The notes under the pieces: generated by a model
Seen by the model: the letters and a program-made list of their open reading frames with translations, nothing else
Databases searched by the model: none
What the model was told of the DNA's origin: nothing
Program-made: the position numbers and the translations under genes
Assembly (NCBI RefSeq): GCF_004087915.1
Contig: NZ_CP035108.1
Span: 2,914,001-2,978,000 of the forward strand
DNA from: Geovibrio thiophilus
Lineage (GTDB): Bacteria > Chrysiogenota > Deferribacteres > Deferribacterales > Geovibrionaceae
Direction: 5' to 3'
Length of the DNA stretch: 64,000 nucleotides
Shown: piece after piece, positions 57,147 through 64,000 of the stretch
Layout of the letters: each line of letters begins with the position of its first letter
Numbering within the stretch: the first letter of the stretch is position 1

Positions 57147-58427
57147 CTATTTTCCGCGCGTATCCCCTCCCTGCACAGCATCCTTCAGCTGTTTCCATTT
57201 TTTTACGGAAAGTTTTTTATAGCGCTGATCATCATCTGTGATACGCTTGTATTCCGCATCGTTAATAAAGCGTCCGTTTGTGACCTTAAATTCCTTTCCG
57301 CTGTGGAAGCTCTCAATCTCCAGTCCGTCCTTTTTCAGGTCGAAGATCCGCTCCTCCTCCGTTTCACGCATCAGACGCTTATTGTTTTTATGGCAGCTTT
57401 CACACATCACAACCTCCCGTCTGACTGTATGCGGAAAAAGAGCCTTATAATGGTCTGCCAGCATTTCGTTCTCTTTCCCTTTGGCGCCTTCACCCACTAC
57501 ATATGTAAAAAACGCTATATACTGAGGACGTACGGGTGAGTATTTCCCCCGTGAGTTCACCCCGAGAGGCGGCGGAGAATAGTCCTTGGTGTGGCTGCTT
57601 TTGGCGTATTCGTTGTTCGGCGTTTTCACCCAGCGGAAGTAATCGTCATATTCTGTATTGCGGAAGCGTATCCAGAAGGTGCCGTATTCCTGTGAAGCCC
57701 ATGCCGAGTGGCAGGTGTAGCACTCCATTTTCTCCATATGCTCGGGGATCGAATGCTCTATTGATGAGGTTCTGCTGACCTTGTGGCAGTCTGTGCAGGT
57801 TTTTGAGAAAGGCTTGCCTTCGGCGAGACTCTGCATGGAGTGGCATTCTGAACACTGCATCCCCTTTTCATGGTGGACATCGGGGAGCATTTTCGCGTAA
57901 AGCCCGTCATTATGCTCAATCCCTCTGTCGTAACGCTCATGGTCGTCCCGCACACCGAGACCCGTGTATTCAATACCAGTGTAATAGCCGCTGTGACATG
58001 TAGTGCATGCTTCAGTTTTCGGTTTAACTGTATCATGCACGCTTTTCCCCTTATGGCAGTCTGTGCAGGAGGAGACATGGCAGGATGAGCAGTTCTTAGC
58101 GTAAAACGCAGGATCTTTTTTACCGTATGATTCGTGGACGAACTTCTGCTCCGCATCCCGCTTGTGCATGGGGCTGTTCAGCATGCCCCTGTAGTCTGCG
58201 TGGCAGGTGAGACATCCCTGCGCTCCGGTGCGGAACTCTGCCGCCTTTGCGTAGTGGGTGTCGTTTTTTATATGGCACGATGTGCATGAGGCATTTTTAT
58301 GAGCATCAGTAAGCTTTACCTTGTGACAGTCAGTACAGGTTTTGCCCTTGGTATCGATCTGTCCGCCGTATGCCGCGCTAGTCAGCAAGAAGAGGCTTAT
58401 GCACAGAATCGGAAAGAATCTTTTCAT
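57147..58427 (-). CDS. 10-heme periplasmic c-type cytochrome of the ext-like cluster
   Basis: This 426-aa protein has a signal peptide (FFPILCISLFLLTSAAYG) and ten CXXCH motifs in the first 350 residues; the closely spaced CSSCHVSSCTDCH places two hemes next to each other. There is no lipobox. The last 70 residues are Lys/Asp/Glu-rich and contain no heme. Multiheme cytochromes of this kind relay electrons from the inner membrane to extracellular acceptors or to metal or selenium oxyanions. The start lies inside the preceding cytochrome gene (50-bp overlap), so expression is coupled. I cannot say whether it corresponds to one defined Ext cytochrome. Confidence 0.93.
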   Translation of the reverse strand: MKRFFPILCISLFLLTSAAYGGQIDTKGKTCTDCHKVKLTDAHKNASCTSCHIKNDTHYAKAAEFRTGAQGCLTCHADYRGMLNSPMHKRDAEQKFVHESYGKKDPAFYAKNCSSCHVSSCTDCHKGKSVHDTVKPKTEACTTCHSGYYTGIEYTGLGVRDDHERYDRGIEHNDGLYAKMLPDVHHEKGMQCSECHSMQSLAEGKPFSKTCTDCHKVSRTSSIEHSIPEHMEKMECYTCHSAWASQEYGTFWIRFRNTEYDDYFRWVKTPNNEYAKSSHTKDYSPPPLGVNSRGKYSPVRPQYIAFFTYVVGEGAKGKENEMLADHYKALFPHTVRREVVMCESCHKNNKRLMRETEEERIFDLKKDGLEIESFHSGKEFKVTNGRFINDAEYKRITDDDQRYKKLSVKKWKQLKDAVQGGDTRGK

Positions 58428-60234
58428 AGTCTATCTTTTTCCCGTAGATTTTATTGTCGCCCTTGTCATGGCAGATTATGCAGCGGTTGGCATCGAATAT
58501 CCGGCTTATCTCAGCAGGGGTAAACACCCTTGAGTGTTCCCTGACAATGTCTGAGGTTACGGACATCTTACCGTTTTTCAGCGTGTACAGCGAATCCAGA
58601 GGCTTGTCGCACTGGTCGCACATGTATGAACTGTCGATATTTTTCTTCGTGACCGATACCAGCCCCTGCCCGAATCCCGCAAACATGAGATCAGAATGGC
58701 ACTTGCGGCAGGTGATTGCCTTTTTGCCTGTGTTATGTCCGTAAAACGGGGCGAACTTAAACTTCCTGCCCCCCTTATAGTTGAAAACATGCTCTTTGAT
58801 TACCGCATTCCCTTTTTCATCCAGCACAGTGAGGAAGGTCTGGCAGCCCGGAGTGACGGGAGCTATTTTCCCTCTCTGATTCAGTCCCATGGGGAACGGG
58901 AAGAACGAGCGGAAGTCCTCTTTCTCGCTGAAAAGACCCTTGGTCTCTTCCATTTTCACCCAGTCCATCATCGTCTGCGATTTGTCATAGGTGGTGTGGC
59001 AGCCGTAGCACTGGATTACCGTCTTTGAGTGGCAGGTGTAGCACTCCATGCGCTCATGCCCGTACACTGCGTGGTCTGCCGTGTTCGTCACAGTCTTTAT
59101 CTCAAGGCGCTTGCCCTCTCTTTTGGTGTAGAGAATGAACCTGCCGCCTTCCTTTTTTACGTTTGAATACATCCGCCCCTTGGAGGTAAGCACCATATCG
59201 TCGCCGTAGTTCGCTTTTACCTTGTAATACTGCGATTCCCTCAGCGGAGAGTCGCTTTCTTTGGTAATTTTTGCTGTTTTCGGCAGATCTTCCGGTGTTC
59301 CGTGGCAGTCCTCGCATGCTGTCTCAAGCTGCCGGTACATATTTTCATACAGATAGCCGTCCCCCATCATATCCCGTGAGGTATGGCAGTCTATGCACTC
59401 CATGCCGTATTCCCTGTGAATGTCCGCCTGCATATGGCGTATATTGCGTATGCCGTCCATCAGTTCAGGTCCCGGTATGCCGCCGTCGGTAGGAACGAGT
59501 GAGTTGTTGCCGTCGTATTCTCCCCTGTACGAGAGAGCTATGCGCCCGCTTCGGTTATGGCAGGTGAGGCAGACATCGTCATTCGGAAGAGGATTGATTA
59601 CGTGCTTTTCAGGGTACGGTTTCTTACCCAGAATCGTTTTATCACCGCCTGCGTAAGCTCCGTCCACGCTGTGGCTGAAATGACAGGCAGCGCAGCCGGA
59701 GGAATGGTGGGCACGGTAGCCTATGAGTTTGTCAAACCCCACATGGCAGCTTGAACAGAACTTCCTGTACAGTTCGCCGGACAGCTCCTCAAGCTCTGTA
59801 ACCTTCGGCAGAACAACCTTGTTTCCTTCAGCGTCGAACCCTTCGGAACCGCCGGTGCTGTAATGTTTTCCTTTGTAGTCATCCCATGCCTGCTGGGCGT
59901 TTTTAATTATTCCCGTGTTGGTGTACATCAGCGTGGTGTTCACTCTGTCATGCTGATACTGGTGGCATTTGCCGCAGCCCTTGTCCCAAACCTCCGGAGC
60001 GGAGGGATTGCGTCCGCCGAGCATGTCCTTGTGTGCGGCGTCCTTGTCTCTTGTGCCGGAATTTCCGGCGTGGCACTCCGTACAGGCGAATTTATGGTTT
60101 TCGGAAGCGTCCTCTATACCAGCATGACACTCAGCCGCAGTGCAGGACTGCACAGCGTTCTTCGACGCTGCAAGAGCATTTCCGGAAAGCATAATTAATA
60201 TAATCGGAATTAGAAGAAACAATTTTCTGCGCAT
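58378..60234 (-). CDS. 12-heme c-type cytochrome of the ext-like cluster
   Basis: This 618-aa exported protein has a signal peptide (LIPIILIMLSGNALA) and eleven CXXCH motifs plus one CX4CH (CTAAECH, near residue 31), so up to twelve hemes. A twelfth CXXC near residue 560 reads CDQCD, where Asp replaces the heme-binding His. GLNQRGKIAPVTPG has a relative in the neighbouring cytochrome (GVNSRGKYSPVRPQ), which suggests the two share a common ancestor in their C-terminal halves. The protein is a candidate for the ExtKL-type electron carrier of the selenite/tellurite reduction cluster. There is only a weak ribosome site. It is in the operon ExtH, porin, small protein, cytochrome, cytochrome. Confidence 0.93.
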   Translation of the reverse strand: MRRKLFLLIPIILIMLSGNALAASKNAVQSCTAAECHAGIEDASENHKFACTECHAGNSGTRDKDAAHKDMLGGRNPSAPEVWDKGCGKCHQYQHDRVNTTLMYTNTGIIKNAQQAWDDYKGKHYSTGGSEGFDAEGNKVVLPKVTELEELSGELYRKFCSSCHVGFDKLIGYRAHHSSGCAACHFSHSVDGAYAGGDKTILGKKPYPEKHVINPLPNDDVCLTCHNRSGRIALSYRGEYDGNNSLVPTDGGIPGPELMDGIRNIRHMQADIHREYGMECIDCHTSRDMMGDGYLYENMYRQLETACEDCHGTPEDLPKTAKITKESDSPLRESQYYKVKANYGDDMVLTSKGRMYSNVKKEGGRFILYTKREGKRLEIKTVTNTADHAVYGHERMECYTCHSKTVIQCYGCHTTYDKSQTMMDWVKMEETKGLFSEKEDFRSFFPFPMGLNQRGKIAPVTPGCQTFLTVLDEKGNAVIKEHVFNYKGGRKFKFAPFYGHNTGKKAITCRKCHSDLMFAGFGQGLVSVTKKNIDSSYMCDQCDKPLDSLYTLKNGKMSVTSDIVREHSRVFTPAEISRIFDANRCIICHDKGDNKIYGKKIDYEKILSDSVHKPLLAD

Positions 60235-60292
60235 GAACCTATCTTAAGCTTTTATTATTTTTTTGGGAAGTGAAAGCGGTTTGGATGAGGCA

Positions 60293-60310
60293 GGGCGGAC
60301 AAAGCCGCCC
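60293..60310 (-). promoter_or_regulatory. Intercistronic hairpin between extJ-like and cytochrome genes
   Basis: GGGCGG and CCGCCC form a 6-bp stem with a 6-base loop, extendable by a few bases with mismatches, in the 106-bp gap. No U-run follows on the minus strand. It may stabilise or process the operon mRNA, so that small protein and cytochromes reach different levels. Confidence 0.4.
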
Positions 60311-60340
60311 CGCCAAAGTATAACCTTATAGAACAGTCGG

Positions 60341-60559
60341 TTAGCAGCCCTGAAGCTGGAAACCGCCTTTGGGGGAACCGAGTGCTTCAACTTTTACATC
60401 ATCGCCTTTTTTAACGTCGATGTCTTTGTCGAGTTTGATGGTGATAGTCGTACCCTGTTTCTCAACAACTTTTCCTTTGGACTGTTTAACAGCCGCAAAA
60501 GCCGCTCCTGCTACAACAAGAGTAAGAGCAAGCGCAATTACAGTGATTTTCTTTTTCAT
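60341..60559 (-). CDS. extJ: Small exported protein, ExtJ-like
   Basis: This 72-aa protein has a signal peptide ending ALTLVVAGAAFA. The mature 50 residues form a small beta-rich domain (GTTITIKLDKDIDVKKGDDV) and end in LQGC just before the stop. Its place between the porin and the first cytochrome, its size and its export match ExtJ of the selenite/tellurite reduction operon. Its function is unknown. A C-terminal Cys is also the last residue of the rhodanese gene product. The ribosome site is AGGAGG. It lies 18 bases after the porin gene. Confidence 0.7.
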   Translation of the reverse strand: MKKKITVIALALTLVVAGAAFAAVKQSKGKVVEKQGTTITIKLDKDIDVKKGDDVKVEALGSPKGGFQLQGC

Positions 60560-60577
60560 ATCAATTTCCTCCTAGGA

Positions 60578-61813
60578 TTAGAATCTTACCTGCAGGAACA
60601 TTTCAAAGGTGTCGTAATCCTGCTTATTGGTATCTGCTCCGACCTCTTCGTCGAAATCGGTAATTGAGTACTGACCTACTATTTTAATATCGTTGCCGGC
60701 GAGGTAGTAGTTCGCGCCGAAAGCGTAGAAGTCAACCGTGTTGTCAGTGTAGCCGTTGAGCATGGCGTATTCAAAGCTGTCGTATCTGCCGAAGAGCTGG
60801 AGCTTGCCGGGACCAACGTTCATGGGGAGCATGTAGCCCGCTTTCACATAGTAGCCTTCTCTCTGACCGTTCGCACCGTTGAATGTACCCGCCGCAACGT
60901 TGTCAGTGAGTGCGGAGTCAGGGTCAGCGCCTTTGTGAAGGTCATCAAGGTCTATGTCAAGGTAAGCGCCGGACAGAGTAAAGGTACCTGCGGCTGTGGG
61001 CATTTCAGCGAAGAAATCCAGAGAGTATGCGCTGTAGTCAACTTCATCGGTTCTGTTTGTGGTATCGCCGTAAGCAACGTCAGCTTCGTACTGGTATGAA
61101 CCGCCGACGGTGAGGACTTTTTTCTCGCCGAGGTATGAACCCTGATAGCCGTAGCCTGTTTCCTTATCAAACATAGTGAAGTGCAGACGTCCTGTGTAGC
61201 GGAAGCCGGAGTTGGGAACATAGCTGCCCTCATCGCCTTCGCCGCCGGATTCACGCCCTTCCATTACATCAAGCCTGTACTGAAGGTAGTCGTCAGCAAG
61301 GTTGCCCCATACCGCAACACCGTAGTCTCTGCTTGTTTTGAAGGGAGCAGCGACAAAGAGCGAGCGGTCGAAGTTAAGGGGCGTGAAGCAGCCTTCAAGG
61401 TTCTCCCTTGTGAGGTTGTGCTTAAATTTACCGAGCGTTACGTTGAAAGCGTTGTTCTGAGCGTATCTTATCTGCGCATCGAGAACATAGAAATTCTCAT
61501 CGTCAGTGAGCGAGTCTTTCACGCCGAGAGGGTTAACAGCCTTGTCATCAAGGTACTCTGTCTGAAGATAGAAGCTGAGCTTGTCGTTGTAAGTGCCGAT
61601 GAAGCCGAATCTGTTTCTTCTGAAATTGAAATCGGCGGTGTCGTCTTCACCCTGATCGCCTGAGCCTGTGTTTCTCATCGTAACGCCGAACTGACCTTCA
61701 TAGAAGAACTTAAGGTATTTGCCGTCACCGAGTTCGATCGGTTTGAAGGCAAATGCCGAGCCTGCCATGAGCATCACAACCAGAAAAAATGTAAAAAACT
61801 TTATATTTCTCAT
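60578..61813 (-). CDS. extI: Outer-membrane porin, ExtI-like
   Basis: This 411-aa outer-membrane beta-barrel has a signal peptide (LVVMLMAGSAFA) and alternating polar/aromatic strands, and ends with the aromatic C-terminal signature FLQVRF used by the barrel assembly machinery. It has similarity in style to OprP-type phosphate/oxyanion porins (FNFRRNRFGFIGTYNDKLSF, DYGVAVWGNLADDYLQYRLD). A single Cys occurs in NLEGCFTPLNF. In Geobacter sulfurreducens, ExtI is needed for selenite and tellurite reduction, which suggests entry of the oxyanion or electron conduction through the pore. The ribosome site is GGGAG. It lies 23 bases after the rhodanese gene. Confidence 0.85.
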   Translation of the reverse strand: MRNIKFFTFFLVVMLMAGSAFAFKPIELGDGKYLKFFYEGQFGVTMRNTGSGDQGEDDTADFNFRRNRFGFIGTYNDKLSFYLQTEYLDDKAVNPLGVKDSLTDDENFYVLDAQIRYAQNNAFNVTLGKFKHNLTRENLEGCFTPLNFDRSLFVAAPFKTSRDYGVAVWGNLADDYLQYRLDVMEGRESGGEGDEGSYVPNSGFRYTGRLHFTMFDKETGYGYQGSYLGEKKVLTVGGSYQYEADVAYGDTTNRTDEVDYSAYSLDFFAEMPTAAGTFTLSGAYLDIDLDDLHKGADPDSALTDNVAAGTFNGANGQREGYYVKAGYMLPMNVGPGKLQLFGRYDSFEYAMLNGYTDNTVDFYAFGANYYLAGNDIKIVGQYSITDFDEEVGADTNKQDYDTFEMFLQVRF

Positions 61814-61836
61814 GTTTTATCTCCCTCTTGAATTAA

Positions 61837-63157
61837 TTAGCAGCCGCTGCCTATGCTGTCGCCGATACCGTCACTGCCTTCACCGGCGGGTACGGTATTG
61901 TGATATTCATAGTCTTCTTCGTAAATTTCGTTGCCTGTGCCTGTGTAGTTCCAGTCAACGAATACACCGGCTGCGCCTATGAGTGCTGCCTGACCGCCTG
62001 TTGCGCTGAAGCTGTAAAGAGATGTGTCATAGGCGGGTATAAGCCCCTGAAGAGGACCGTCAGCCTTGAACGCGTTCCACTGGTTGTTTGAACCGTCATA
62101 CAGAACAACAGGTACGCCGAGAACATCTGTGAAGGCAGTGTACAGTGCAGAAGCGGAAAAACCGGCGCCGCAGTGTACATATATTGTTTTGCCTTCAAAA
62201 AGGGCAAGAACGTCATCCCATGTGGTAACTGTGGCAGGATTGCTGTCTGCTGCGTAGGAAGCGTTGATGTTTGCGATTATCGTTGCTTTGATGGTGTCGG
62301 CGTCATTGAACTTTCCGTTCACGTGAACAGAACCTGCGCCAAGAAAGAATGAATGCTCTGTTTCTATATTTCTGCCGGCTGCTGTTGTAGTCTGAGCGAA
62401 AATGACGGGTGAGCCGTTTTCAACTGCGTCTATAACCTCTTTTTATGGAGGCTCTGAGCTCGCCTTTCAGGACAGGAAGTTTCCTCACACTGAAAGTACT
62501 GTCAGCGGGGTCGTAAAGAGAAGCGACAGTTGTCGGCGCAAGAGCGGGATATGCCGCAGCGAAGGCTGCTGTGCCGCCGTCAAGAACCTTGACTTTAGCT
62601 TTTGAAAAGCCCCAGTATGAAAATATCCAGTAGCTTCTCCAGACATCATACTGGCTGCCGGTGCCTGTACCTGTGAGGACTATGACAGTTTTCTCGTCTA
62701 CACCGAGATCCTGAATCATGGAGTCAATTCTTTCTCCGGTAATCATCATGGAGCTTGACGCGCCGTGTCCGGCTCCGCTGTTGTATGCTGTGGTATCAAG
62801 CGGACCTTCGGCTCTGTTATCGTTATAGCCGAAAGAAGAAATTGCCGCTTTGGATACTGAACCGGTTATTTTAGGTGCGGTCAGGGATGTATAGTCTGTC
62901 ATTACATCAAAAACAACAACGGGCGAACCGTCAGCGGTTTTGAAACCGTTGTCGATCCATGCCGCAACCGTTTCAGGCTGCACAAGGGATGATTCGTTGG
63001 AGTAGTAGCCTTCCCACCAAGAATACGCAGGCGGGTTGCTTTCGTAAGATGTGTCGACCGAGCCGCCGCTTCCGCAGGCAGCGACCATGCTCATAAGAGC
63101 CGCGATTGTTGCGAGTAAAATGAAAGAATAAAATTTCCTTAAACTGCAGAACTTCAT
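61837..63157 (-). pseudogene. extH: Rhodanese-like lipoprotein, ExtH-like, with one frameshift
   Basis: The gene starts at 63157 (GGAGG ribosome site) and encodes a lipoprotein signal with lipobox MVAAC, then two rhodanese modules. The first frame stops at residue 245. The second module continues in another frame, which restores the sequence EVIDAVENGSPVIFAQTTTA, down to the stop at 61837. Removing one A from the run of five at 62440-62444 joins both parts into a 439-aa protein. The C-terminal module has the active-site loop YVHCGAGFSASALY with the persulfide Cys, while the N-terminal one has TGTGTG and no Cys, as in many tandem rhodaneses. The product ends in SIGSGC. It may be a sequencing error, a true mutation, or a site of slippage. 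Confidence 0.8.
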
Positions 63158-64000
63158 AAGTTTCCTCCGTTTTTTTGCTGTTTTACAGGAATTTTTGCCG
63201 GATAGAAGTTTGGATTGACCTCCTATTGATATTATCTATAGCGGCAATTAAAAATTAAATACGTCAATGCAGGCTCCGTTCTGTCCGTTTGTTAAATAAA
63301 AGATGACAAAACGTTCCGTTTTCTTGACTGATTATCTGCATCTTGCGGCTAAATGTCAATAAATACTCACAGGTTATTTTGACAGTTAATATGGATAATT
63401 CTAATATCATGATTTCACTATATTTATTTAAATTTCTAATATTATTGCATTTATTCCAAAAAGATCATACGCGCTAATGTAAAGATTAGGTAAAAAAAAT
63501 ATGTTTTTTATGCGGAATTAAATCAGCAAACAGTGGTATTGGTGAAACAATACTCAGTAATATCTCGTATCATATTGTGAAACAGTGGTATTTATACATA
63601 AGATCAATATCTGCATACGTGTTGATCCGACGCACCGATTTACCAGAAATTTTTGAATACAAAGGTTTTTTTATGAGCACCCGTAAAGGTGATAAAAATA
63701 TAACCTATTGAAGCGCTGGTGTTTATTCATATCCTATCAGTTTAGCAGGAATTAACACGGAGAGCTTTCGGGCGTGACGCAGCCTGATTCAGGCGTCTGA
63801 GTATAAATAATTATAAAACAACAAGTAATTCATATTCAGCTACTAGGGATTATGCTATTATATTTGTCGATATGTCGTAGGGTTTACAGTTTGTCATCTG
63901 CGTTTTTATATGTTTTTCCGGAGTGATGTGTATATTTATAAGATAAGCTGTGGCGGCACGGCACTTCATCATGCTATGTATTATTAACCGCACGGAGGCT
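63158..64000. other. Intergenic region upstream of the ext-like operon
   Basis: About 840 AT-rich bases with no convincing gene. A weak candidate for the operon promoter on the minus strand is TTTAAT (63254-63259) with GATAAT (63231-63236). Direct repeats AAACAGTGGTATT lie at 63528-63540 and 63580-63592, with a related GTGAAACAATACT between them. A hairpin (GCCTGATTCAGGC with flanking GAC/GTC) is at about 63776-63797. The last bases (about 63995) show GGAGG, so a plus-strand gene may begin beyond the window. Confidence 0.6.
63528..63592. repeat. Pair of 13-bp direct repeats upstream of the ext-like operon
   Basis: AAACAGTGGTATT occurs at 63528-63540 and 63580-63592, 52 bp apart, with GTGAAACAATACT at about 63542-63554 as a partial third copy. 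The spacing is close to five helical turns, as for a regulator that binds on one face of the DNA. Confidence 0.5.

Follow-up and report, generated by a model that had tools for sequence, protein, structure and literature searches.

The window (the whole 64,000-nucleotide stretch of Geovibrio thiophilus DNA analyzed here) holds extH, extI, extJ, extM and extN, genes of what is truly an Ext system, though a variant one: it lacks ExtKL, includes PsrABC, is split between two loci in the genus, and has a frameshifted extH in the window genome. On balance, we lean toward reading Ext as a chalcogen uptake-and-reduction system, for selenite/tellurite or polysulfide, made up of an OprP-like pore, a rhodanese, thiol-bearing arms, multiheme wiring and a Psr-type reductase, of which the window would hold the outer half. 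This reading is favored by the matches to Ext models, the joint location of extO, extPQ, extS and psrABC in the own genome, the one-run synteny in relatives, the clade formed by PsrA, the kinship with 2vpw and SrrA, the predicted ExtI fold, the Gly-Cys ends of ExtH and ExtJ, and the phenotype of the Geobacter extI mutant. Against it stand the extH frameshift, the position of psrABC, which does not adjoin extHIJMN in the genus, the separability of extHIJ and PsrA, and the partial Fe and Mn oxide reduction of a G. sulfurreducens strain with extHIJKL only.

The ext genes of the window

The features are listed in Table 1. In a profile search, ExtI, ExtJ, ExtM and ExtN each scored above the NCBIfam equivalog cut-off of their models, which is far beyond chance. 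The genes for the ExtH-like rhodanese lipoprotein, ExtI, ExtJ, ExtM and ExtN follow the same order as in extHIJKLMNOPQS of Geobacter sulfurreducens (GSU2940-GSU2930), where ExtM (12 hemes, GSU2935) and ExtN (10 hemes, GSU2934) come after extHIJKL (PMC5877670). The sequence-only reading had proposed an ext-type cluster from the Geobacter extHIJ order, and had named two checks, a profile search of the small proteins, which could refute it, and a comparison of gene order across the Deferribacterota and Geobacter. The search bears the proposal out: both ExtI and ExtJ hit the models made for them, ExtH remaining below its cut-off of 200. As for gene order, extHIJ runs are found in relatives within the Deferribacterota.

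Table 1. Features of the window cluster and of the second locus. Positions are those of the window, except where the own genome (G000) is named; bit scores and cut-offs refer to NCBIfam models.
Feature	Position	Strand	Remarks
extH-extI-extJ-extM-extN	57147-63157	-	five genes, all confirmed
extH, rhodanese-like lipoprotein gene, frameshifted	61837-63157	-	matches ExtH model NF040901 in two pieces
A5 run, frameshift site	62440-62444	-	one extra A; alignment with congener loci L028, L029
Codon of rhodanese active-site Cys (YVHCGAGFSAS)	62170-62172	-	downstream of frameshift
Codon of ExtH C-terminal Cys (...GSGC)	61840-61842	-	downstream of frameshift
extI, outer-membrane porin	60578-61813	-	411 aa; NF040900, 510.6 bits (cut-off 150); Pfam Porin_O_P
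extJ, small exported protein	60341-60559	-	72 aa, ends LQGC; NF040942, 59.7 bits (cut-off 52.5)
extM, dodecaheme c-type cytochrome	58378-60234	-	618 aa; NF040943, 928.6 bits (cut-off 800)
extN, decaheme c-type cytochrome	57147-58427	-	426 aa; NF040967, 483.6 bits (cut-off 200); 10 CxxCH
Promoter-like TTGACA-17-GATAAT, candidate	63331-63359	-	about 170 bp upstream of extH; 11/12 consensus matches
Histidine kinase/response-regulator pair	57067-54496	-	about 80 bp downstream of extN; dCache_3/PAS kinase and receiver-only regulator
psrABC-extO-extPQ-extS operon	L114 2974-9503 = G000:C1:2440973-2447502		outside window; divergent ArsR-family gene upstream
extO, Rieske protein	2445318-2445731 (G000)		intact
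extS, tetraheme	2446747-2447484 (G000)		263.8 bits (cut-off 100)

The layout first described for the cluster was five closely spaced genes on one strand with one overlapping pair. All the genes, the common strand and the overlap (50 bp between extM and extN) are there; the rhodanese gene is split by a one-base frameshift, and the spacing is not uniformly tight, given the 106-bp gap between extJ and extM. This gap contains a G+C-rich inverted repeat, located by eye at window positions 60288-60314 (GGCGGGGCGGC..GTCCGCCCTGCC), which could tune cytochrome expression.

The heme counts of 12 and 10 were correct. In ExtM they consist of eleven CxxCH motifs and one CX4CH (SCTAAECH), which occupies the site of the first CxxCH in most relatives; the loss of a heme at this site is thus ruled out, since the CX4CH stands in for the CxxCH. 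The further claim, that these cytochromes form a set different from that of Geobacter, has to be dropped, as the 12- and 10-heme proteins are Geobacter's ExtM and ExtN; only extHIJ and extKL had been compared. The real differences from Geobacter are the lack of the 5-heme ExtKL and the location of extOPQS elsewhere in the genome. An apparent NCBIfam ExtO match in the window does not represent a Rieske protein: the model concerned, NF040968 (416 positions, named as the ExtO iron-sulfur subunit), matches the decaheme ExtN and looks mislabelled.

In a simple motif check, no lipobox-like motif was found in ExtM or ExtN of this genome, so ExtM appears non-lipidated here, unlike Desulfuromonadia ExtM, which have lipobox-like N-termini. 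The rhodanese is the only lipoprotein found in the cluster, and no outer-surface lipoprotein cytochrome was seen among its products.

A second locus and the arrangement in relatives

The own genome is a single contig of 2,997,552 bases, in which ExtO, ExtP, ExtQ and ExtS are all encoded next to psrABC, 0.53 Mb from the window cluster. ExtP and ExtQ are fused into one cytochrome-b protein, ExtPQ; their scores (177.4 bits against a cut-off of 290 and 113.9 against 150, respectively) are below cut-off, and their identity is taken from position and homology. A frameshift in extO, suspected from ORF picking, was ruled out. The pentaheme selenoprotein cytochrome ExtKL had no match in the own genome and exceeded its cut-off in none of the 51 Deferribacterota genomes; a full Geobacter-type Ext set is therefore not claimed. 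Compared with the G. sulfurreducens system, the window genome thus lacks ExtKL, has PsrABC beside extOPQS and a fused ExtPQ, is split into two loci, and has no LysR gene adjoining extH.

The psrABC genes encode proteins of 734, 201 and 311 aa. PsrA aligns over its length with the Psr/Phs enzyme 2vpw, its best solved relative (508 bits), and its best NCBIfam model is PhsA (463.7 bits, below the cut-off of 694), while PsrB and PsrC match TtrB/DsrO-like and NrfD models. Judging from these matches, the ext-linked molybdoenzyme can be assigned to the Psr/Phs/Srr type, its partner subunits being FeS and NrfD-like. A single lineage takes in PsrA, PhsA and the selenite reductase SrrA (PMC7331816). The ext-linked copy has the three-gene A-B-C layout and the NrfD-like anchor in common with PsrABC, PhsABC and SrrABC, but ext-linked copies form a clade of their own and fall below the PhsA cut-off.

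Among the 51 genomes of the phylum, ExtI is found in 21 and ext-type PsrA, defined by a score of 778 bits or more against the own copy (the next paralogue has 420), in 15. All fifteen also have ExtP and ExtS, and PsrA sits with ext genes every time. In a maximum-likelihood tree of 33 sequences, the 15 ext-linked PsrA form one clade (support 100/100), separate from the ordinary Psr paralogue that these genomes carry as well and that is also present in genomes with no ext genes. The sister of this clade, on a long branch (96/94), is a PsrA from a Geobacter MAG, encoded near the ext cluster there.

The typical arrangement with ext-linked PsrA is extHIJMN-psrABC-extOPQS. Outside the genus, six genomes of its family, including Seleniivibrio and one assigned to Denitrovibrio, carry H-I-J-M-N-psrABC-O-PQ-S as a single run, into which a transposase-like ORF is inserted between N and psrA in Denitrovibrio. 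In Deferribacter desulfuricans (G011) and the f5 genomes, the run is H-I-J-psrABC-O-P-Q-S and M-N adjoins it; in G013, these genes form two blocks near each other. psrABC-M-N-O-PQ-S occurs without H-I-J in two genomes, and the Mucispirillum-type genomes keep ext genes without a member of the ext-linked PsrA clade; hence, neither HIJ nor ext-linked PsrA strictly needs the other. In two Mucispirillum-type genomes, a distant molybdoenzyme of 838-839 aa adjoins extO-extP (L125 2323-8495; L040 13108-18001), which suggests more than one reductase partner for the ExtO/P module. As a separate observation, the ExtS match of G023 (L113, G023:C1:1402496-1403245) contains one TGA, and an overlapping ORF of 252 aa (L116 8503-9261) reads open.

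The presence of the system outside Geobacter, put forward in the sequence-only reading, holds for the Deferribacterota. It is not new, as ExtI homologues were named in Deferribacter, Denitrovibrio and Desulfurispirillum in 2018 (Jahan et al. 2018, PMC5877670). What appears to be new, on the strength of the comparisons above and of the protein ends described below, is the absence of ExtKL, the ext-linked PsrABC clade and its linkage, and the Gly-Cys ends of ExtH and ExtJ.

The predicted ExtI pore and the terminal cysteines of ExtH and ExtJ

An AlphaFold2 model of ExtI, built from 25 sequences, has 16 long barrel strands (pLDDT 81.5, pTM 0.80). Its best PDB matches in a fold search are OprP and OprO, with TM of about 0.62-0.65 and a best E of 5e-15; a phmmer search of ExtI against the PDB returned nothing. 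The predicted 16-strand fold and the Pfam family Porin_O_P are thus common to ExtI and these phosphate and pyrophosphate porins. Identity with them, however, is only about 15-17%, and ExtI belongs to a dedicated family linked to rhodanese and cytochrome genes. The model suggests ExtI is a 16-strand, OprP-like solute pore. MtrB-type conduit barrels are wider than a 16-strand OprP-like barrel, and the model, which predicts no barrel wide enough to enclose a multiheme cytochrome, argues against a cytochrome-filled conduit. The predicted pore agrees with the normal Fe(III) citrate reduction of a Geobacter extI mutant, which loses selenite and tellurite reduction (PMC5877670), and with the loss of selenite uptake and ExtH localization reported for a Geobacter extI mutant (Jahan 2019, according to PMC8981825).

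ExtH and ExtJ have unrelated sequences. Gly-Cys makes up the last two residues in 54 of 59 distinct ExtH and in 55 of 56 distinct ExtJ proteins. In the first set, these ends are found in 24/29 ExtH and 23/23 ExtJ; in the Desulfuromonadia set, which comprises the best-scoring matches from 244 genomes, they are found in 30/30 and 32/33, respectively. There is slight overlap between the sets, L164 and L165 being the ExtJ of L071 and L067, and sequences that are related do not count as independent. As a background, among the other ORFs at the same loci of the first set (466 with a length of 150 aa or more), only 2 end in Gly-Cys. Apart from its terminal Cys, the ExtH tail is a variable Gly/Ser-rich linker, which makes this residue stand out. 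In most Deferribacterota ExtJ, the terminal Cys is the sole Cys, as in the window (codon 60344-60346). The predicted structure of ExtJ is only a low-confidence hairpin. Four ExtH-type rhodaneses have no terminal Gly-Cys (L040 11266-12600, L125 418-1953, L044 3398-5005 and L069 4590-6950), and two of these do not adjoin extI.

SoxY and DsrC each have a reactive Cys at the end of a flexible C-terminal arm. Given this way of working, the Gly-Cys tails of ExtH and ExtJ may, by analogy, act as chalcogen carriers. The likeness would be one of a Cys at a flexible C-terminus, with no sequence relationship shown; unlike in SoxY and DsrC, no residue follows the Cys in ExtH and ExtJ, and these are two unrelated proteins. 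We found no paper that mentions these ends, which is weak evidence of novelty since the subscription literature was thinly covered.

Proposed chalcogen uptake and competing explanations

In the chalcogen reading, an anion would enter through the ExtI pore, and ExtH, held in place by ExtI, would take the chalcogen onto its active-site Cys. The Gly-Cys arms of ExtH and ExtJ could then hand it on, protein-bound, for reduction by PsrABC and/or ExtM and ExtN. Electrons would flow from menaquinol to the NrfD-like PsrC, and also through the Rieske/cytochrome-b module ExtOPQ with the tetraheme ExtS; in the genus, the second locus would thus supply the inner half. In the Deferribacterota, the linkage of pore and rhodanese to a molybdoenzyme of the Psr/Phs/Srr lineage gives a direct candidate for the terminal reductase; in Geobacter, extI has a phenotype and the selenite/tellurite reductase is unproven. 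Reduction of selenite or tellurite by the window host, as the sequence-only reading proposed, may follow from this scheme.

A serious rival to that substrate is already in print. In two S0 reducers, Deferrivibrio metallireducens and Deferribacter desulfuricans, a molybdoenzyme operon adjoins one that encodes a rhodanese along with a "phosphate-selective porin", and polysulfide uptake has been proposed (PMC11896075, 2025). By its description, this neighborhood is the H-I-J-psrABC association found here in D. desulfuricans; its proteins were not identified as Ext there, and ExtM, N, O, P, Q and S go unmentioned. One and the same system appears to lie behind the Ext genes discussed for "selenite" in Geobacter and the genes discussed as "polysulfide porin and rhodanese" in the Deferribacterota, which joins two literatures. 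No paper was found that ties Ext to this work on Deferribacterota molybdoenzymes and polysulfide, a weak sign of novelty given the thin coverage of the subscription literature.

Under polysulfide or elemental-sulfur respiration, polysulfide would pass through the ExtI pore, be bound by the rhodanese ExtH and be reduced by PsrABC, with selenite as a side substrate. The closeness of PsrA to the PhsA model and to a solved Psr/Phs enzyme fits this, as does the fact that sulfur is the usual rhodanese substrate. Yet most Deferribacteres bearing psrABC do not reduce S0, and other acceptors have been suggested for them (PMC6896113); G010, taken as the S0 reducer D. autotrophicus, has neither ExtI nor ext-linked PsrA; and the ext mutant phenotypes found concern only selenite, tellurite and metals. 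We regard this alternative as possible, though rather unlikely.

It is improbable that the system is a decaying remnant, being lost from the window organism and non-functional. One reason to consider this is extH, which in the window genome is FRAMESHIFTED, an extra A relative to two congeners shifting the frame. The first ORF spans 62420-63157 and the remainder, 61837-62421, lies in another frame, whereas in the congeners G021 and G022 extH is a single ORF of 439 and 447 aa. The spread of the genes over two loci in the genus and the patchy occurrence of ExtI in the phylum point the same way. However, extI, extJ, extM, extN, extO, extPQ, extS and psrABC are all intact ORFs, the congeners are intact, and evolution past the shift is of the coding type: 71 of 92 base differences from G021 fall at third positions, with 90% amino-acid identity. 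The shift is therefore either recent or a homopolymer base-calling error. The active-site rhodanese Cys, encoded past the shift, is kept in 29/29 ExtH.

The two pieces of ExtH score 116.8 and 50.7 bits against NF040901, and the intact ExtH of G021, at 155 bits, is also below cut-off. This does not exclude an Ext system, since 10 of 18 Desulfuromonadales extHIJKL regions also have a divergent rhodanese (PMC6148476). Selenocysteine read-through was ruled out as an explanation of the split gene, given that the remainder is read in a different frame and that the congener genes have one base fewer; a programmed frameshift is unsupported, as the congeners need none.

A porin-cytochrome conduit for extracellular electron transfer, with ExtI as the sheath of ExtM or ExtN and ExtH as its partner on the outer surface, is very doubtful. 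In its favor, extHIJKL is listed among the putative outer-membrane conduits of G. sulfurreducens, where a strain with extHIJKL alone keeps part of its Fe and Mn oxide reduction (PMC6148476). Against it, known conduit barrels are wider than the predicted one, the cluster has no evident outer-membrane cytochrome, and Fe(III) citrate is reduced normally by the extI mutant (PMC5877670). The extracellular acceptors that had also been suggested for this cluster are weakened by the same points and by the uptake defect described in PMC8981825, the partial oxide reduction being what still speaks for them.

Within the chalcogen reading, we tentatively propose a new envelope relay, in which the Gly-Cys arms of ExtH and ExtJ would carry Se, Te or S from the rhodanese by the OprP-like pore to a periplasmic reductase, with the Psr-type molybdoenzyme (Deferribacterales) and ExtKL (Geobacter) as alternative terminal modules fitted to a single conserved uptake system. 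This predicts the terminal Cys of ExtH and ExtJ to be essential, and PsrABC and ExtKL to be exchangeable.

As for regulation, the region upstream of extH (window 63158-64000, about 0.84 kb) is A+T-rich and non-coding, and lies within one continuous 83% match to the congener G021. The promoter-like element in it is a candidate only, as sites in the overall promoter scan were no commoner than in shuffled sequence. No Rfam element was found in window 54-64 kb. The kinase/regulator pair follows extN in 3/3 genomes of the genus, in the place where other genera of the family have psrABC, and is a possible sensor for the substrate.
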